Both the position numbers and the translations under genes were made by a program. Positions 1,938 through 52,877 of a stretch of DNA of 64,000 nt are shown here, piece by piece. The stretch comes from Candidatus Eisenbacteria bacterium (lineage in GTDB: Bacteria; Desulfobacterota; Binatia; DP-6): the NCBI GenBank assembly GCA_035577985.1, contig DATJZY010000065.1, positions 1 to 64,000 on the forward strand, written 5' to 3'. The notes below the pieces were generated by a model. It saw nothing but the letters and a program-made list of their open reading frames with translations. It had not been told where the DNA came from and ran no database searches. Position 1 is the first letter of the stretch. Each line of letters starts with the position of its first letter.

Positions 1938-2603
1938 ATGATCCCGGCACGCATCCTCCTGGCTGACGACGAAGAGACGTTTCGAGCTTCGGTTGCCGTG
2001 CTCCTGCGGCGGGAGGGCTACGACTGCGACGTGGCTAGCTCGGGCGAGGAGGCCGCGGAGCTACTTGCCAAGGCACAGTACGACCTCCTCATCAGCGATC
2101 TGCGGATGCCGGGCAACATGGACCTCGAGCTGCTGCGCGGCGTGTCGAACGGTGGGGCGGTTCTCCCGGTGATCGTGGTGACGGCGTATCCGTCCGTACC
2201 GACCGCGGTCGAAGCGATGCGCTTCGCCGTGGTCGACTACCTCGTGAAGCCGTTCGACTTCGACGATCTGCTGCGCTCGGTGCGCCGCGCGCTCGAGACG
2301 CGCAAGGCGGCGCGTATGCTCGAGTCGCTGCGCGACGTGCTGGCCGACGGCTCGACGGTGGCGCAGATCGCCCGCCGCGTCGCGGCGCCGACCAACGGCT
2401 CCGCCTCGGACGTGCTCACGCCGCGCGAGCGCGAGATCGTCGCGGCCCTCTCATCGGGCCAGCGCGTCGGTGCCATCGCGGAGCGGCTCCGCGTGTCGGA
2501 GCACACCGTTCGCAACCACCTGAAGGCCGTCTATCGCAAGCTCGACGTCCATTCCCAGGTGGAGCTGCTCTCGCGCTGGCGCGCTCCGGGCCAGCGGGCG
2601 TAG
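1938..2603 (+). CDS. Orphan response regulator, REC plus LuxR-type HTH
   Basis: A receiver domain occupies residues 1-120: acidic pocket DDEE at 10-13, phosphoacceptor Asp54 in ISDLRMPG, Thr82, and Lys104 in YLVKPF. A LuxR/NarL-type helix-turn-helix follows at about 160-215 (LTPREREIVAALSSGQ, then VSEHTVRNHLKAVYRKL). It therefore should be a phosphorylation-controlled DNA-binding regulator. The chosen ATG at 1938 sits just before the first receiver strand; a GTG at 1920 is an in-frame alternative. No histidine kinase is adjacent, so its partner lies elsewhere. A hairpin begins two bases after the stop. The targets are unknown. Confidence 0.88.
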   Translation: MIPARILLADDEETFRASVAVLLRREGYDCDVASSGEEAAELLAKAQYDLLISDLRMPGNMDLELLRGVSNGGAVLPVIVVTAYPSVPTAVEAMRFAVVDYLVKPFDFDDLLRSVRRALETRKAARMLESLRDVLADGSTVAQIARRVAAPTNGSASDVLTPREREIVAALSSGQRVGAIAERLRVSEHTVRNHLKAVYRKLDVHSQVELLSRWRAPGQRA

Positions 2604-2604
2604 T

Positions 2605-2631
2605 CCGAGCCAAGACTGCGTCTTGGCTCGG
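2605..2631 (+). terminator. Perfect hairpin just after response regulator stop
   Basis: Twelve-base arms (CCGAGCCAAGAC and its complement) flank a TGC loop. The hairpin starts two bases after the stop at 2603. No T-run follows, so termination by a canonical intrinsic mechanism is uncertain. It is also the left part of the dispersed repeat described for 2605-2703. Confidence 0.5.
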
Positions 2632-2703
2632 AGGGGGACGCGAGGGTGGTGCGTGGTGGCACGCACGACCGGCATGTCGCGGCCAGCGAAGCTGGCGCGA
2701 CAT
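2605..2703 (+). repeat. Dispersed intergenic hairpin repeat, copy A
   Basis: The repeat is hairpin 1 (2605-2631), a spacer of about 40 bases containing GGACGCGAG and CACGCACGACCGG, then hairpin 2 (2674-2703), whose stem TGTCGC(G)GCCAGC pairs across a GAA loop. One unpaired G sits in the left arm. Copies with the same order and the same bulge occur at 24061-24160 and, lacking hairpin 1, at 15810-15869. An inverted, more diverged copy lies at 2750-2847. No ORF is present, so this is a REP- or MITE-like non-coding element. Confidence 0.7.
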
Positions 2704-2749
2704 ACGAGGGTACGCGCCCCGAGCTGCAGCTAAGGTGACGCTCGCGTAC

Positions 2750-2847
2750 GTGGTCGTGCCGGTGTGACGCAGCGACATGTCGGTCGCGCGGGCCACGGAC
2801 GCCGCACTCTCGCGTTCCCCCCGACCCAAGACGTAGTCTTGGGTCGG
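2750..2847 (-). repeat. Dispersed hairpin repeat, inverted copy A'
   Basis: Read on the minus strand, this matches copy A: a perfect hairpin at 2821-2847 (arms CCGACCCAAGAC, three-base loop), then GGAACGCGAG, GCGCGACCG and ATGTCGC in the same order. Hairpin 2 is degenerate. With copy A it forms a head-to-head pair about 240 bases long filling the space between the response regulator and the GH1 gene. Confidence 0.6.
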
Positions 2848-2852
2848 CACTG

Positions 2853-2858
2853 TATAGT
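2853..2858 (+). promoter_or_regulatory. Candidate -10 element for the GH1 gene
   Basis: TATAGT lies 12 bases before the GH1 start, directly after the hairpin of copy A'. It is the best AT-rich hexamer in this GC-rich spacer. I see no good -35 at 17 bases; that position falls inside the hairpin. The implied 5' leader would be only a few bases long. Confidence 0.35.
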
Positions 2859-2870
2859 AGACCCGTCCGC

Positions 2871-4055
2871 ATGGCGCGCTTTCCGGACGGGTTCGTGTGG
2901 GGCACGGCGACGGCCGCCCACCAGGTCGAAGGGGGCAACTGGAACAACGACTGGTGGGCCTGGGAGCACACGCCCGGGGCGCCGTGCACCGAGCCGTCCG
3001 GCGACGCATGCGACCACTACCACCGCTACCCCGACGACATCCGGCTGCTCGCCGCGCTCGGCTTCAACGCGTACCGCTTCTCGCTCGAGTGGAGCCGCAT
3101 CGAGCCCGAGGACGGCGAGTTCTCGAGCGCGACGCTCGATCACTACCGGCGCATGTGCGCCACCTGCCGCGAGCACGGCCTCGAGCCGATCGTCACCTTC
3201 CACCACTTCACGACGCCGCGCTGGGTCGCGGCGCGCGGTGGGTGGACGGCGTCCGAGACCGCCGATCTGTTCGTCCGCTACTGCGAGCGCGTGACCGCGC
3301 GCCTGGGCGACGTCATCGGCCGCGCCTGCACGTTCAACGAGCCGAACGTCGTCGCCACCTTCGGGCACCTCTGGGGCCTCTTTCCGCCCGGCAAGCGCGA
3401 TGCCGATCTGCGACGCCGCGCCAACGACGTCTTCATCGACGCCCACAAGCGATCCGTGCAGGTGGTCCAGGGCGGGCCGGGTACCGTGCCCGTCGGGCTC
3501 ACGCTCGCCATGCAGGACATGCAGGCGGTCGCGGGAGGGCACGCGGTCCGCGACGCCGAACGCGCGCTGATGGAGGACGTCTACCTGGAGGCGGCGCGCG
3601 GCGACGACTTCATCGGCGTGCAGACGTACACGCGCTTCCGCTACGGGCCCCATGGGATGCTCCCGCCCGAGCCGGGCGCCCGCACGACGCAGATGGGCTA
3701 CGAGTTCTGGCCCGAGGCGCTCGAAGCGACCATCCGCCGCGCCTGGGAGATGACGCGGCAGGTGCCGATCCTGGTCACCGAGAACGGCATCGGCACGCTC
3801 GTCGACGCCGAGCGCGTCGAGTACGTCGAGCGCGCGCTCCGCGGCGTGCTGGCGTGCCTGCGCGACGAGATCGACGTGCGCGGCTACGTGTACTGGAGCC
3901 TGCTCGACAACTTCGAGTGGACGTTCGGCTACGGGCCGAAGTTCGGACTGGTCGAGGTCGATCGCACGACGCAGGTGCGACAGGGCAAGCCGAGCGCCGC
4001 CTGGCTGGGGCGCATCGCCCGCGCGAACGCCCTCGACGACGACCGCGACGCCTGA
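2871..4055 (+). CDS. Glycoside hydrolase family 1 (beta-glucosidase-like)
   Basis: The protein is a GH1 retaining beta-glycosidase. The N-terminus has the family signature (FPDGFVWGTATAAHQVEG, residues 4-21). The acid/base Glu157 lies in TFNEPN and the nucleophile Glu304 in LVTENGIGT; the C-terminal aglycone region is YWSLLDNFEWTFGYGPKFGL. At 394 residues it is about 60-80 shorter than typical members, the shortening falling in loops between the catalytic glutamates. No signal peptide is seen, so it probably acts in the cytoplasm on small glucosides or galactosides; the sugar preference cannot be assigned. It stands alone on the plus strand and converges on the MAPEG gene 6 bases away. Confidence 0.9.
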   Translation: MARFPDGFVWGTATAAHQVEGGNWNNDWWAWEHTPGAPCTEPSGDACDHYHRYPDDIRLLAALGFNAYRFSLEWSRIEPEDGEFSSATLDHYRRMCATCREHGLEPIVTFHHFTTPRWVAARGGWTASETADLFVRYCERVTARLGDVIGRACTFNEPNVVATFGHLWGLFPPGKRDADLRRRANDVFIDAHKRSVQVVQGGPGTVPVGLTLAMQDMQAVAGGHAVRDAERALMEDVYLEAARGDDFIGVQTYTRFRYGPHGMLPPEPGARTTQMGYEFWPEALEATIRRAWEMTRQVPILVTENGIGTLVDAERVEYVERALRGVLACLRDEIDVRGYVYWSLLDNFEWTFGYGPKFGLVEVDRTTQVRQGKPSAAWLGRIARANALDDDRDA

Positions 4056-15674: not shown

Positions 15675-15809
15675 AGGTGCCGCGCGGCCGGGGGCGGGAC
15701 TCCGGCTTCGGCTCGGCGCGAAGAGAAAGAGACCCCCCGTCTCGATGCAGTCGGCGCGCCGGGCGTCGAAGCTTTCGTCTCGCCCTCGACCGGGCGGCAT
15801 TTTCGCGAG

Positions 15810-15869
15810 AGTGGGACGTGGGTGGCACGCGCGACCGGAGTGCGGCGGCCGGCGAAGCCGGCGCCGCAT
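15810..15869 (+). repeat. Dispersed hairpin repeat, copy C (partial)
   Basis: GCGAGAGTGGGACG, GGCACGCGCGACCGG and the bulged hairpin TGCGGC(G)GCCGGC-GAA-GCCGGCGCCGCA (15841-15868) repeat the right half of copies A and B, including the extra G in the left arm. Hairpin 1 is absent. It lies between the ICMT-like and PaaI genes; the rest of this 236-base spacer holds no ORF I can support. Confidence 0.6.
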
Positions 15870-15910
15870 ACAGGAACGCGCGCGGATCAGGCGTCCGCGA
15901 GGGACTCTTC

Positions 15911-23571: not shown

Positions 23572-24060
23572 ATGAGGATGCATTCCGGATGGATGATGGC
23601 GGTTGGGGCGGCGGCGGTTCTGAACGCAGCTTCGGCCATGGCGGGGCCCGCGACGTCGACCACGACGACGAGCACCACGGCGGCGTCGAGCTCGACCTCG
23701 ACGACCACGACGACGCTCCTCGGCGGATGCGCGGTGGAGGCGACCTTCGACTCGATCCTGTGCCGGCTCGACGCGCTGATCGCGGAGGCGCAGACGGCCT
23801 CGGATTTGGGACGCCTCAAGGGTGGAATCGTCGGCTCGGCCCAGAAGGCCAAGAAGCAGTGCGCGAAGGCGGCGATGCTCGGAACGGGGAAGAGCGCCTC
23901 GAACCAGGTGAAGAAGTGCTCGAAGAGCCTGGACACCTTCCGTCACAAGCTCGACTCGAACAACGCGCACAAGATCGTTCCCGAGGCGACGCGCAACCTC
24001 TTCCGCGACCAGGCCGCCCAGCTTCGCACCGACGCGAACAGTCTGCGCGGAACGCTGTAG
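23572..24060 (+). CDS. Small secreted protein with Thr/Ser-rich linker
   Basis: This 162-residue protein has a signal peptide (MMAVGAAAVLNAASAMA), then a low-complexity stretch of Thr and Ser (about residues 28-48) and a basic, helical C-terminal domain with four cysteines (GGCAVEA, SILCRL, KKQCAKA, VKKCSK). I do not recognise the family. Poly-Thr linkers before Cys-containing domains are seen in exported proteins of some deltaproteobacterium-like genomes. The ATG lies 6 bases after a candidate -10, suggesting leaderless translation. A hairpin repeat follows directly after the stop. Confidence 0.7.
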   Translation: MRMHSGWMMAVGAAAVLNAASAMAGPATSTTTTSTTAASSSTSTTTTTLLGGCAVEATFDSILCRLDALIAEAQTASDLGRLKGGIVGSAQKAKKQCAKAAMLGTGKSASNQVKKCSKSLDTFRHKLDSNNAHKIVPEATRNLFRDQAAQLRTDANSLRGTL

Positions 24061-24160
24061 CCGACCCGAGCCACGGCTCGGGTCGGAGTCGGACGCGAGA
24101 GCCGTGGCGTTGGTGGACCGCGCGACCGGTATGCCGCGGCCGGCGAAGCCGGCGCGGCAT
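24061..24160 (+). repeat. Dispersed hairpin repeat, copy B
   Basis: Hairpin 1 (24061-24086, arms CCGACCCGAGCC) begins at the base after the stop of the secreted-protein gene and may terminate it. The spacer contains GGACGCGAG and CGCGCGACCGG. Hairpin 2 (24131-24160) is ATGCCGC(G)GCCGGC-GAA-GCCGGCGCGGCAT with the same bulged G as copies A and C. The arms differ from copy A by paired changes that keep the stem. Confidence 0.7.
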
Positions 24161-24189
24161 GCCGTCACGCATGGCGGCGGGGCAAGAAT

Positions 24190-25776
24190 CTAAGGGGAGC
24201 GCGGGGCTGTTGCGTAGAGGATGTGGTGTCCTCGGGTTTCCCAGGGGTAGACGGTCGTGATCGCCTGGATCTCGGCTACGTGGCGGGGGCTGGTGACGAT
24301 CCAGAGGAAGGGATGCTGGGCGAGTTGACGGCGTAGCTGGTTCGGGCGGTTCGCGCGGATGACGGGTCGCGCGAGGTAGAAGAGCATCGAGGCCGCGGTG
24401 ACCTCGTAGGAGACGATCGGGGCGGGCGGCGCCGCCTGGATGATCGTCGCCAGCTCCTTCTCGCCGACGACCCGGCTCACGCGGGGCGCAACCGCCGCGT
24501 AGAACACGAACGAGCACACGACCATGCCTGCGGCGACGCCGAGCACCGCGGCTCGCAGACCGGAGAGGCGCCACAGCAGGAGGAGCGCGAGCGCCAGGAA
24601 TGGCAGTGTGAACAGCGCCGGTGCGATCTGCGCGATCACGACGTGCGGCTTGTGGTGGCCGATCCGCAGGGCGATCGCCGGTGCGATCGCGACGGCGGCG
24701 ACGAGCACGCCGATCCCGCCGGCGACGAGACGGCGGACCGACGCATGTTCGAGGTGGCGTCGCAGCGTGTAGGCCGTGACCGCAGCGAGCGGGGGAACGG
24801 CGGGGAGCACGTAGGTGACGAGCTTGCCGTGGGACAGGCTGAAGAAACCGACGATGCCGGCCGCCCAGACGAGGCAGAAACGCGCCGCCTCATTGCCACG
24901 CGTCGCGACGACGAGCAGCGTCGCAGGCAGGACGAGGCTCCACGGGAAGAGCACGAGGAGCACGCCCGGGCCATAGTACCACCAGGGTCCCGCGTGGAAC
25001 GTCGTCGTGTCCTCGCTGAAGCGCGCCAGGTGGTGAACCAGGAAGAACTCGCGCAGGTAGTCGGGGTCGAGAACCTGCGCCGTCGCGTACCAGGGCGCGG
25101 CGACGGCGACGAAGGCGAGCAGCGGTCCCGCGTATGCCAGCGGCGAGCGCGGGATCGGACGGCGCGTGAGCAGCGCGAAGACGAGCGGGATGGCGCCGAC
25201 GAACAGTGGCGCGATCATCCCCTTGGTCAGCATGCCGAGCCCGGCGGCCACGGCCGCGACGTAGAGGAGGGAGCGTCGCTCGGGCGCGGCGGTCCACCGC
25301 TCCGCCGCCGCCACCCCGAGCGTCAGCCAGCAGGTGAGCAGCATGTCGAGGCTCCCGTATCGTCCGATCGCGAGGAATCCGGCCGACGTCAGCAGCACGG
25401 CCACCGCGAGGCGTGCGGTGCGCCGGTCCCACACGGCGCGGCACCAGACGAACACGACGGCGAGCGTGCCGAGCGCCGTGAGTGCGGAGACGAGCCGCGC
25501 ACCGAGCTCGTTCACGCCGGCCACCCCCAAGGCGAGCGCGGCGAGCCAGTAATAGAGGATCGGCTTGTCGTGGTACGGCTGGAAGTTGTGCTGCGGCAGC
25601 AGCTTGCCGCGCCAGGTGGTGGCGTCGAACAGCTCGCGTGCGATCTCGGAATGGCGTCCCTCGTCGGGATCCCACAAGCCGTAGTGCCCGAGGTTCACGA
25701 GCAGGACGACGGCGGCGAGCGCGAAGAGGCCCCCCGTGAGCCAGCGATCCCGAGCGGCGCGGTCCGGCGGCGTCAC
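24190..25776 (-). CDS. ArnT/PMT-like glycosyltransferase (GT-C, family 39)
   Basis: The 528-residue polytopic protein has the GT-C first-loop motif LWDPDEGRHSEIARELF (residues 35-51) followed by YHDKPILYYWLAALAL, typical of ArnT-like transferases that use a polyprenyl-phosphate sugar at the outer face of the inner membrane. About ten to twelve helices precede a soluble C-terminal part of about 90 residues. Its ATG shares four bases with the stop of the upstream ABC gene (ATGA), so it is the last gene of the ECF sigma operon. The acceptor is unknown; export by the ABC pair followed by glycosylation is an attractive inference. Confidence 0.85.
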   Translation of the reverse strand: MTPPDRAARDRWLTGGLFALAAVVLLVNLGHYGLWDPDEGRHSEIARELFDATTWRGKLLPQHNFQPYHDKPILYYWLAALALGVAGVNELGARLVSALTALGTLAVVFVWCRAVWDRRTARLAVAVLLTSAGFLAIGRYGSLDMLLTCWLTLGVAAAERWTAAPERRSLLYVAAVAAGLGMLTKGMIAPLFVGAIPLVFALLTRRPIPRSPLAYAGPLLAFVAVAAPWYATAQVLDPDYLREFFLVHHLARFSEDTTTFHAGPWWYYGPGVLLVLFPWSLVLPATLLVVATRGNEAARFCLVWAAGIVGFFSLSHGKLVTYVLPAVPPLAAVTAYTLRRHLEHASVRRLVAGGIGVLVAAVAIAPAIALRIGHHKPHVVIAQIAPALFTLPFLALALLLLWRLSGLRAAVLGVAAGMVVCSFVFYAAVAPRVSRVVGEKELATIIQAAPPAPIVSYEVTAASMLFYLARPVIRANRPNQLRRQLAQHPFLWIVTSPRHVAEIQAITTVYPWETRGHHILYATAPRSP

Positions 25777-48002: not shown

Positions 48003-48210
48003 GCGCGACGAGGGCTATCGCCGGCCTGCGGTCGGATCAAGGTGCGTTGACTGCGCTCGCCGTGAGCTATAGCCAGGTAACAGCACTCGATGGGCGATGG
48101 GGTTCGCCCGAACCGCCCTGGCCTCGGCCGGGGATGATGACTCCTGCAGGGGATGCCCGCGGGAGCTGATTTCGACGATCCGCCGCACGGCGTCCGCTGG
48201 GACGACGGCG

Positions 48211-49944
48211 ATGGCGATCGAATCGGAACGAACACGGGAGGGGCTCACCGAACTGGCTGCCGTTGCCGCCGAGCTCGGCAGGGCGGCGCTCGCCCGCGAG
48301 GCCTTGGATCTCGCCACCAGGCTTTCCGAAGGCCGCTTCTTCGTCGCCTGCGTCGGTCAGTTCAAGCGGGGCAAGTCGTCGCTCGTCAACGCGCTCGTCG
48401 GCGCGCCCATCCTTCCGACAGGCGTCGCTCCGGTGACGAGCGTCGTGACGGTCGTCCGTGGCGGCGAGCGGCTCGCGGTGCGGGTCGAGCTTCCCGAAGG
48501 CTGGACCGATGTGGACCCGCGTCTCCTGGCCGCGTACGTCACCGAGCAAGAGAATCCCGGCAACACGAAGCGAGTTGACACGGTGGAGGTGTCCGTGCCG
48601 AGCAGGCTCCTGCGCGACGGGCTGTGCCTCGTCGACACCCCTGGCATCGGCTCGGTCGTTGCGCACAACACGGCCGCCACGCGGGCGTTCGTTCCACACG
48701 TCGATGCCGCCGTCGTCGTGCTCGGCGTGGATCCGCCGATCTCGGCCGACGAGCTGACGCTGATCGAGGAGATCGCGGCCCAGACGGAGACGCTCCTGTT
48801 CGTGCTGAGCAAGGCGGATCGCTTCTCGAATGCCGAGCGCCACGAGGCCGAGGTGTTCACGACCCGCGTCCTGCGCGAGCGTCTCGGCAGGGATCCCGGT
48901 TCCATTCTGGCGGTGAGCGCGACGGAGCGGCTTGCCGGCGGAACTCCTCGCGACTGGGCCTGTCTGGAGAGGACCCTTGCGCGCCTCGCCCGGGATTCGC
49001 GCCAGCATCTCGTCGCCACCGCCGGGCTTCGAGGCATACGCGGTCTGGCTGATCGGCTCTGTCGGGAGATCGACGAGCGACTCGGAGCATTGCTCCGACC
49101 CCTCGAGGACTCGGAGCGCAGGGTTGCCGCACTGTCCGAATGTGCGGCGCGCGCGGAGGAGACGCTGGGGGACCTTCGCGCGCTGATGGCCGCAGAGCAC
49201 CAACGTCTCGCCCGGCGCCTCCAGGCGCAGCAGGCGGCGTTTCTCGATCGTGCCCTGCCGGCGGCCAGAGAAGCGCTCGCTCGTTTCGTACGTGACGGCG
49301 ATGGGGGACGCGAGGTACTCCGCACACGGGCCTTGGCTGAAGCTCGGCGCCTCCATCGGGAGCTCGCCGAGCGCTGGCGTGCAGAGGAACGCCCCGCGGC
49401 CGAGGAGCTCCATCGGATCGGAGCCCAGCGGTTCGTGCAGCTCGCGGACGAGTTTCTCGAGCGCCTGGTCGATGCCATCCGGTCCGATGCAAGCGGGATT
49501 CCCGCTATGCCCGTCGAGGTAGGCTTCCGCGTGCCCAGTCACCTCTACTACACGAACCTGCTCCAGGTGACCGGTCGCTCGCCGTTGCGCTGGATGCTCG
49601 ATCAGCTCCGTCCCGCGCCGTACGCCCGTCGCGCGATCGGGCGGGAGGCGACGAGGTATCTCGAGCGTCTCCTGACCGTGAACGTGTCGCGCGTGACCAA
49701 CGACCTCGACGAGCAGGCGCGCGCCAGCGGCCGCGATCTCGAGGCCGAGGTTCGTCGACATCTCCGCGACATTGGCGAGGCCGCGCGGCGGTCCCTGGCG
49801 GACGCCCGCGCGCAGCATGCGCAGGGCGAAGATGCGGTCCGGCAGGAAGTCGAACGGCTCAGATCGCTGCGCGCGCGTGCGACCATCGTCGCCGAGACGA
49901 ATCTGAGCGGCCCCCTCCCGTTGGAGGCTTCCTCCCATGGATGA
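48211..49944 (+). CDS. Dynamin-like GTPase
   Basis: The 577-residue protein has a bacterial dynamin-type GTPase domain: P-loop VGQFKRGKSSLVNALVG, switch I threonines in PTGVAPVTSVVTVV, DTPG in VDTPGIGSVV and the specificity motif as SKAD (LSKADRF). A helical region rich in Arg, Ala and Glu follows (about 270-560) and should form the stalk. No clear membrane helix is seen; LSTLY-type paddles are not recognised. Bacterial dynamins reshape membranes or protect them under stress or phage attack. ATG 48211 begins at the domain; ATG 48097 is possible. It overlaps the MFS gene by 8 bases. Confidence 0.82.
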   Translation: MAIESERTREGLTELAAVAAELGRAALAREALDLATRLSEGRFFVACVGQFKRGKSSLVNALVGAPILPTGVAPVTSVVTVVRGGERLAVRVELPEGWTDVDPRLLAAYVTEQENPGNTKRVDTVEVSVPSRLLRDGLCLVDTPGIGSVVAHNTAATRAFVPHVDAAVVVLGVDPPISADELTLIEEIAAQTETLLFVLSKADRFSNAERHEAEVFTTRVLRERLGRDPGSILAVSATERLAGGTPRDWACLERTLARLARDSRQHLVATAGLRGIRGLADRLCREIDERLGALLRPLEDSERRVAALSECAARAEETLGDLRALMAAEHQRLARRLQAQQAAFLDRALPAAREALARFVRDGDGGREVLRTRALAEARRLHRELAERWRAEERPAAEELHRIGAQRFVQLADEFLERLVDAIRSDASGIPAMPVEVGFRVPSHLYYTNLLQVTGRSPLRWMLDQLRPAPYARRAIGREATRYLERLLTVNVSRVTNDLDEQARASGRDLEAEVRRHLRDIGEAARRSLADARAQHAQGEDAVRQEVERLRSLRARATIVAETNLSGPLPLEASSHG

Positions 49945-51644: not shown

Positions 51645-52877
51645 CGGGCGGGACACGATTCCCACGACCTTGCCCTGGGTATCGACGACGGGGAGCCGCT
51701 TGATGTGCCTGGTCACCGAGAGGGTGAGAGCCTCGATGACCGTCGCGTCGCTCCGCACCGAGATGGGAGGGCTGCTCATGACGTCGGCCGCGCGCTGCCC
51801 GGAGGCGCGCCGTACCTTGTGCTCTGCGCTTCGATTCCAGCGGCTCCGCAGGAGCGTGAAGATGCCAGGGCGCTCACCCGGGTCGACCCGCGCCAGGAGG
51901 TCGGTGTCGGCGATGACGCCGACGAGGCGTCCCGCGTCGTCGACGACCATGACGCGCTTCGCATCCGAGCCGAGGAGCTTCTCGACCACCTCGGCCAAGG
52001 GCGTGGTCTCTCGGACGGACGGCACTTCACGGTCCATGATTTCGGACACGCGACGATGCTCCTGGGGAAGTCGCTGCGTCTGGGGCACGCTGCGGCGGGT
52101 GTAGCCCTCGGCGATGCTCGACAGAACGTCGAGGCGGCTGACGACGCCGACGAGGCAACCCCGTTCATCGACGACCGGGAGGCGCTTCAAGCCCCGCCCG
52201 TGCATCAGTTGCGCAGCGTCCTTGAGCGGCGCCGCTTCCGCGATCGTGACGGCAGGCTTCGCCATCGCCTCCCCGACGGTCGTCCCCCGGGACTGAAGGC
52301 TGCGAAGGACCTCGGCCACGGTCGCCGCGTCCGCGGCCTTGTGCAGGCTCAAGCTCGCCGACGTGAGGCCCGCCCGCAGGAGGTCTTGATCGCCCACCAT
52401 CCCCACGACGAGCCCCTGCGCGTCCACGACGGGCAACGCGGTATGGTCGCGTTCGAGAAGCTTCCGGACCACCTCCGCGATCGACGTTTCCGCGGTCACC
52501 GTCTCGGCGGATCGCGTCATGACGTCCGCGACACTCACGTCCGGGACGCCGCCCCGAAAGGCCGCGGAGTAGAAGCGAACCTCGGTATCCTCGACCGTGA
52601 TGGTGCCGGCGCTGAGCATACCGGCAACGTGATCCGCGAACTTGTCGATCTTGTCGGGCAAATCGACCACCGTGATCACGATCGGCAGGTCGACGGACAC
52701 CTCGACGAGCACGCTCGTCTTGATGTGTGAGTGCGCACCGAAACCGGCGAGGCCTCTGGTGACCGTCGCCCCCGCGCAGCCGTTGGCTTTCAGGTACTCG
52801 AGGATCGCCAGGTAGAGCGGGCGATGCTTCCAGCGGTCGCGCTCGCCGGTGAAGATGGTCATTCGCTTGCCGCGCAT
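51597..52877 (-). CDS. DUF190 plus four CBS domains
   Basis: Residues 1-110 match DUF190 (GERDRWKHRPLYLAILEYLK, HSHIKTSVLVEVSVDLPIVI), a PII-like fold. Four CBS domains follow (about 117-170, 198-255, 280-340 and 360-420), recognisable from repeats such as DHTALPVVDAQGLVVGMV and KRLPVVDERGCLVGVV. CBS pairs bind adenosine nucleotides, so this looks like a soluble energy or second-messenger sensor. The frame contains both ATG 52877 and ATG 52862. It is divergent from the CoA-transferase gene. Confidence 0.85.
   Translation of the reverse strand: MRGKRMTIFTGERDRWKHRPLYLAILEYLKANGCAGATVTRGLAGFGAHSHIKTSVLVEVSVDLPIVITVVDLPDKIDKFADHVAGMLSAGTITVEDTEVRFYSAAFRGGVPDVSVADVMTRSAETVTAETSIAEVVRKLLERDHTALPVVDAQGLVVGMVGDQDLLRAGLTSASLSLHKAADAATVAEVLRSLQSRGTTVGEAMAKPAVTIAEAAPLKDAAQLMHGRGLKRLPVVDERGCLVGVVSRLDVLSSIAEGYTRRSVPQTQRLPQEHRRVSEIMDREVPSVRETTPLAEVVEKLLGSDAKRVMVVDDAGRLVGVIADTDLLARVDPGERPGIFTLLRSRWNRSAEHKVRRASGQRAADVMSSPPISVRSDATVIEALTLSVTRHIKRLPVVDTQGKVVGIVSRPSLLAASLDLAATTPA

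Follow-up and report, generated by a model that had tools for sequence, protein, structure and literature searches.

What is the hairpin repeat at positions 2605-2847, and how could copies of it come to stand at the ends of genes? The locus belongs to a window of 64,000 nucleotides, the whole stretch of DNA that was analysed, for which the original prediction had described a dispersed repeat with two hairpins. As set out below, the repeat is a MITE/REPIN-type element with inverted repeats, non-autonomous and found in one family. Its copies in the window's genome are probably the terminal modules of a mobile element that has grown old there and has remained under constraint.

Copies in the window and structure of the end module

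A covariance model trained on 27 copies from the window's genome matched all four copies in the window, at the places named in the original prediction: 2605-2720 (+) with 107.8 bits and 24061-24175 (+) with 92.6 bits, both complete, 15773-15884 (+) with 75.2 bits, in which hairpin 1 is lost, and 2749-2847 (-) with 74.2 bits, in which hairpin 2 is degenerate. The two complete copies are part of the training set; the copy at 15.8 kb and the inverted copy lie outside it. The genome scan that had been proposed as a check returned at least 128 matches in the window's genome (E up to 0.01), of which 104 have E below 1e-7, and these matches together with the four copies bear out the claim of a dispersed structured repeat. 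Because 150 first-look candidates were scored for this count, 128 may be too low, and the weakest matches consist partly of hairpin 1 alone or of hairpin 1 on the opposite strand. A 16-base hairpin 2 pattern had 47 exact matches in the window's genome and its reversed control had 0, which rules out chance or local duplication, the reading that the original prediction had tied to an absence of further copies in the genome.

The first two matches in order of position, 2605-2720 (+) and 2749-2847 (-), are the left and right ends of one inverted-repeat element (2605-2847), which lies between ORF 1902-2603, whose translated product looks response-regulator-like, and the following ORF, whose ATG is at 2871. 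The TAG stop of the former (2601-2603, +) is 1 nt upstream of hairpin 1 (2605-2631, +), a 12-bp stem with a 3-nt loop (TNC in the family). The spacer (2632-2674, +) contains the conserved unpaired motifs GGACGCGAG, GTGGCACGC and CGACCGG and is followed by hairpin 2 (2675-2702, +), with the bulged G at 2681 and the loop GAA at 2688-2690, and by a tail (2703-2720, +) with a conserved ACGC. On the right, hairpin 1 occupies 2821-2847 (-), with the spacer next to it towards 2780 and a degenerate hairpin 2. The copy at 24061-24175 (+) is a half element between convergent genes; its hairpin 1 (24061-24086) lies directly 3' of TAG 24058-24060, its hairpin 2 spans 24132-24159 with the bulged G at 24138, and the TAG stop (24190-24192, -) of the convergent gene 24190-25776 comes 14 nt past it. 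A hairpin 1 placed directly after a stop codon had been predicted in two cases, and is found abutting at the half element and 1 nt off at the first element. The eroded copy at 15773-15884 (+) retains the spacer and hairpin 2 (15841-15868, bulged G 15847), and its hairpin 1 is unpaired.

In the end module, as found across the family, hairpin 1 is a 12-pair stem with a TNC loop; ~40 nt of spacer separate it from hairpin 2, which also has 12 pairs, carries one bulged G and closes in an NAA loop, and a short ACGC tail follows. The bulged G to which the original prediction drew attention is kept in 96 of 97 aligned ends from the window's genome, but the GAA loop did not generalize, since the loop is NAA over the 97 ends, with G as its first base in 55, A in 27, C in 14 and T in 1. 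In the 27 copies, 97.5% of the cells of the 24 pairs are paired, and changes on both sides occur at 9 of the 24 pairs, in 27 such cells; none of 500 shuffles reached any of these values, and 1 of 500 reached the observed number of further pair types. In hairpin 2, 9 of the 12 pairs are invariant in this set, partly because the 27 copies had been picked by a hairpin 2 pattern. A fully paired hairpin 1 (12 of 12) is possible in 85 of 101 ends; of 2000 random stretches of the window, 2 allow it. Between nearest neighbours, 76 hairpin 1 pairs have changed; pairing is preserved in 55 of them, 43 of these having changed on both sides, and is lost in 21. Copies for which the fixed register gives fewer than 9 pairs were left out of this count. 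The arms are thus compensated as predicted, but the further step from compensation to selection is unsafe by itself, as pairing can also be restored by template switching within palindromes. The conserved unpaired spacer is the better argument for selection.

Complete elements in relatives and their probable target site

At E up to 0.001, the model had 126 matches in the window's genome (G000), 96, 57 and 48 in G002, G005 and G006, which form one sister genus, 2 each in G003 and G004, and 0 in G001. The repeat is therefore present in six of the seven genomes of the family by this model, and no matches beyond those six were found among 118 genomes drawn from the class. Across the GTDB collection, a 25-base hairpin 2 pattern occurs in 47 stretches, 45 of them in MAGs labelled Deltaproteobacteria DP_3, DP_26 and DP_23, whose source samples we take to be soil. 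One exception is a full copy of 87.2 bits (L252, 127-239) on a 4.6-kb contig of an Actinobacteria MAG from the same 14_1009 sample series, a contig that is possibly misbinned; the other, in Pigmentiphaga, has only 18.9 bits matching. In a literature search with most subscription journals outside its scope, no title or opening abstract described the repeat.

In the sister genus, a complete element reads CTAG, a GGAG-type end, hairpin 1, spacer, hairpin 2, a variable centre, the inverted module and again CTAG. The element is non-coding, has terminal inverted repeats of ~110 nt and is mostly ~270-340 bp long; those with exact signatures at both ends measure 268-341 bp in the loci read, which are a sample from the better matches. 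It is short, lacks a transposase gene and has terminal inverted repeats, as a MITE does, and it contains an inverted pair of hairpins, as a REPIN does. The head-to-head pair that the original prediction had noticed at 2605-2847, and which has the layout of these complete elements, is the unit in relatives, an element with inverted ends rather than a single end. In the window's genome, 47 of 101 ends form inverted pairs and 54 are single, the latter presumably mostly remnants.

Within each relative, complete elements longer than 280 bp are near-identical, with median identities of 98.4% in G005 (n=6), 99.5% in G006 (n=5) and 97.6% in G002 (n=3), and have therefore spread recently. Elements with an exact signature at one end or more, which bear on a possible target-site duplication, have it at both ends in 20 of 26 cases in G005 (including one hairpin 1-only remnant), 7 of 18 in G006 (where two single ends lie at contig ends) and 6 of 35 in G002, and the low count in G002 despite near-identical interiors may reflect imprecise insertion or homogenisation by gene conversion. 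Shorter forms between two CTAGs, either hairpin 1-only or internally deleted, were also seen (L204, L202, L193). In the smallest of these, at L204 500-539 (G005) and L202 3977-4019 (G000), nothing but one hairpin 1 palindrome is left between the CTAGs, perhaps through a deletion from one end to the other.

We infer that insertion takes place at CTAG. Model matches served to choose 40 sister-genus loci (L091-L130), which contain 60 distinct outward ends beginning with GGAG; CTA precedes 48 of these. In a wider set, for which some loci had been selected because they carry TAGGAG, it precedes 65 of 79. The flanks of eight G002 insertions were joined and compared with G005 and G006, and matches ran straight across the join in one or the other at five sites (L097, L098, L099, L105 and L108; seven alignments); a sixth site, L100, is empty in G006 by coordinates only. 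At L105, both element-free relatives, G005 (L182) and G006 (L188), read CTAG, and in G005 this CTAG stands where two convergent genes meet, likely holA and rpsT to judge by their products. The G006 sites of L098 and L099 read CTAA, and the element-free sites of L097 (G005) and L108 (G005, G006) are without CTAG. Since four of the five empty sites have CTAA or no CTAG, either the choice of target is looser than CTAG or the sites have drifted. One gene end, likely that of lepB by its predicted product, is occupied in G000, G002 and G006, but by elements that belong to different subfamilies, and the G005 site is without CTAG; repeated insertion or homogenisation could account for this. A comparison of 62 sister-genus loci, several of them overlapping, with loci of the window's genome for shared insertions gave 28 pairs with protein similarity, unsorted and with paralogues included.

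Gene ends and age in the window's genome

The flanks of 101 of the 104 matches with E below 1e-7 in the window's genome were counted (three were left out), with stops and orientations taken from gene calls of our own GC-position script, used without annotation. A same-strand coding-like ORF ends near the start of hairpin 1 (from 14 nt upstream to 4 nt downstream of it) in 87 of the 101 ends, a placement that a random window position would fit in ~0.3% of cases by arithmetic, and 85 of the 101 start 0-9 nt after a same-strand stop. The stops at the 87 ends are TAG in 65, TGA in 12 and TAA in 10, and those of 41 window genes, two element-adjacent genes included, are TGA in 25, TAG in 15 and TAA in 1; TAG is thus enriched at the elements (65/87 versus 15/41, Fisher p 7e-5). 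The 14 other ends comprise three with a stop at 2-4 nt and too little flank, one with TAG at 4 nt and a weak coding signal, four with a coding frame running into the element, and six that do not fit, among them the eroded and the inverted copies of the window. A downstream gene was called at 78 of the 101 ends and faces the element by its 3' end in 68 and by its 5' end in 10, paired ends being counted twice; as a baseline, 10 of 37 neighbouring gene pairs in the window are convergent. Ends away from a stop score about as well as the others (median 105.7, n=10, versus 111.2, n=91; p 0.17), which speaks against a strict need for a stop codon as far as the small number of such ends allows, though in 4 of the 10 the frame of the gene runs into the element.

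CTAG occurs 14 times in the window versus ~170 expected from base composition, and only 3 of the 14 coincide with stop codons of called genes. Within 14 nt upstream, CTAG is present at only 35 of the 101 ends and TAG at 67. Both observations weigh against insertion at CTAG. In a genome so poor in CTAG, insertion at this tetranucleotide would lead the element to TAG stop codons, where both convergent genes keep their stop. If such targeting is true, it gives a simple reason for repeats piling up between convergent genes.

The copies in the window's genome appear, from their alignment and tree, to be an old, star-like set. The median pairwise identity among 97 ends is 79% and that of nearest neighbours 88%, with a few close pairs up to 97% identical, and the branch sums are 12.28 for terminal and 3.16 for internal branches. 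Positions 14, 40, 45, 99 and 100 are near-random (0.05-0.25 bits), whereas 64 of 115 positions hold at least 1.5 bits; the hairpins, the bulged G and much of the spacer have stayed fixed despite the divergence. With 64 fixed positions beside near-random ones, survival by chance is unlikely, although the model search favours conserved copies. We read this as long selection in place, possibly connected with a function at the 3' ends of genes; alternatively, an old population of elements may be turning over slowly. At L005, L025 and L029 (contigs C15, C102 and C107), near-identical element centres lie within different flanks, hinting at later copying or gene conversion.

Under the preferred reading, that of an old element whose ends are constrained, mobilising activity in the window's genome would have largely ceased, and the ends may have been kept for a useful role at gene 3' ends, a step that we regard as somewhat less likely than not. 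The likeliest such role would be the protection or definition of mRNA 3' ends, or the blocking of read-through between convergent genes. A bolder version, which we consider rather unlikely, is that a CTAG-landing element was domesticated in one lineage into ~100 fixed two-hairpin 3'-end modules, read by a dedicated factor and marking or protecting gene ends throughout the genome, and that the relatives keep the mobile form. Apart from this version, the data show a single repeat family in two conditions: in one genus it is young and spreading, in another old, star-like and strongly constrained. The long-standing question of whether repeats of the REP or MITE type are parasites or serve a purpose at 3' ends thereby becomes testable within one family.

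Candidate enzymes and competing explanations

The suggestion of a RayT-type transposase was borne out in part. Y1 transposase matches (E up to 1e-5) occur in three of the seven family genomes, two in G002, two in G005 and one in G006, precisely those with young near-identical copies, but none was found in G001, G003, G004 or the window's own genome. At the five Y1 loci, with up to ~1.5 kb of flank per side (a contig end truncates L135), no end, hairpin 2 or CTAG pattern of the repeat was found, and a long inverted repeat near the Y1 gene is absent from four of the five, the fifth being cut at the contig end. DDE_3 matches at the same threshold number two in G002 and one each in G006 and G001, and DDE_Tnp_1 matches one each in G001, G002 and G004 and two in G006; of these three enzyme types, G005 has only Y1 and the window's genome none. 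Eight of the nine DDE loci were read (L213 of G001 was left out), and none of the repeat's ends was found there. In G002 and G005, no two ends facing inward at a distance of 0.4-5 kb, as expected of an autonomous copy, were detected, and MAGs may lack such a copy. IS630-type insertion sequences with CTAG on both sides and ends unlike the repeat were observed at L212 (G006) and L214 (G002). A trans-acting enzyme would move the element or have moved it in the past, and we lean towards Y1; a RAYT-like Y1 enzyme is the foremost candidate at nearly even strength, an IS630- or IS5-type DDE enzyme is possible to a lesser degree, and some other enzyme is improbable.

These data bear on two rival accounts of movement. 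The repeat could be REPIN- or BIME-like, built of REP-type single-stranded DNA hairpins that a single-copy RAYT (Y1/HUH) processes in trans, an account that we treat as tentative. The restriction of Y1 to three of seven genomes, the inverted pairs, the bulged hairpin and the GGAG immediately or 2 nt before hairpin 1 would all suit it, and in PMC3733652, most convergent REPs of two species leave <20 bp to the 3' end of either ORF. The three Y1 genomes, however, belong to one genus, so the correlation may be a single event; moreover, no repeat lies at the five Y1 loci, the four Y1 proteins scored of the five reach 41-45 bits, below the 80-bit RAYT cut-off (ncbifam), and the unit is ~110 nt instead of 20-50. 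Alternatively, and with less likelihood, the repeat may be a classical MITE that moves by cut and paste through a DDE transposase, either of the IS630/Tc1 type (TA, CTAG context) or of the IS5 type (YTAR). CTAG flanks the element on both sides, the IS630-type copies of G006 and G002 also sit at CTAG, and the title of a 1991 paper, cited in PMC2170065, reportedly speaks of a preference of IS630 for CTAG. This account would predict a DDE transposase with ends resembling GGAGnnCGACCC, but the IS630-type copies at CTAG carry other ends, and none of the repeat's ends occurs at the eight DDE loci read; G005, with its many near-identical copies, has no DDE_3 or DDE_Tnp_1 match (E up to 1e-5), although a MAG can lack repeats. 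Two-hairpin ends of 110 nt also exceed what such DDE enzymes need. According to PMC3189936, MITEPsy1, which duplicates either CTAG or YTAA, probably descends from an element of the IS5 family, which fits a DDE origin.

Two further accounts dispense with movement in the window's genome. In one, which seems unlikely, the repeat is immobile there and native to ~100 genes, as a 3'-UTR RNA or a protein-binding motif, and was carried along or copied by elements only in relatives; the motif-like conservation, the saturated free sites, the star-like tree and the near-universal position at 3' ends are what it would lead one to expect. Against it stand the same module in near-identical whole elements of relatives, the inverted pairs, the near-identical centres at C15, C102 and C107 and the similar scores of ends away from a stop. 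The other, that intrinsic terminators look alike by chance, draws on hairpin 1 lying directly after stop codons and is very improbable, since there is no T tract, terminator-like sites number 0 in window positions 2500-2950 and none in the 27-copy consensus, and the spacer and second hairpin are conserved.

Among known systems, REPINs and BIMEs with RAYT (TnpA-REP) share with the element the inverted hairpin pairs, one hairpin bulged, the intergenic position near gene 3' ends, the tens to >100 copies, the tetranucleotide before the hairpin and a Y1 transposase in the active genus. They differ in that the module here is ~110 nt long with two hairpins and a conserved spacer, in the use of CTAG plus GGAG instead of GTAG, in the absence of ends at the Y1 genes read and in the lack of a Y1 match in the window's genome. 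TnpA-REP enzymes are described in PMC8266576 as using a tetranucleotide and sometimes a bulge. Some Y1 transposases are paired with long terminal inverted repeats instead of REPs, and these TIRYT repeats (PMC3733652) resemble the present ends in being long, in part self-complementary, moderately abundant and Y1-linked; the published ones flank a transposase gene, and no such flanking was found here at the five Y1 loci. MITEs of the IS5/IS630 type, such as MITEPsy1 (PMC3189936), are likewise short, non-coding and bounded by terminal inverted repeats with CTAG on both sides, but the element has two hairpins per end and much longer conserved ends, and no parent IS was found in the loci read. ISY100, a relative of IS630, duplicates TA according to PMC2170065. 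Non-autonomous IS200/IS605 elements have subterminal hairpins with an unpaired base and insert beside a tetranucleotide, whereas both ends here are inverted copies, and no parent with these ends was found in the loci read. The element works like these known systems, but fails or leaves open one defining test of each.

A tRNA reading of the repeat was rejected, as was an integron attC site, on account of the attC motifs and because the copies are not arrayed. No gathering-level Rfam match was obtained in the repeat, the best (E 0.73) being far below the cut-off. Elsewhere in the window, a fluoride riboswitch (RF01734, 49 bits, E 1.6e-10) lies at 48084-48153 (+), across the automatically assigned start of ORF 48097-49944, and this ORF probably begins further downstream. 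An 84-nt direct repeat, 70% identical and 228 nt apart, occupies 51877-51960 and 52105-52188 and perhaps encodes tandem CBS domains.
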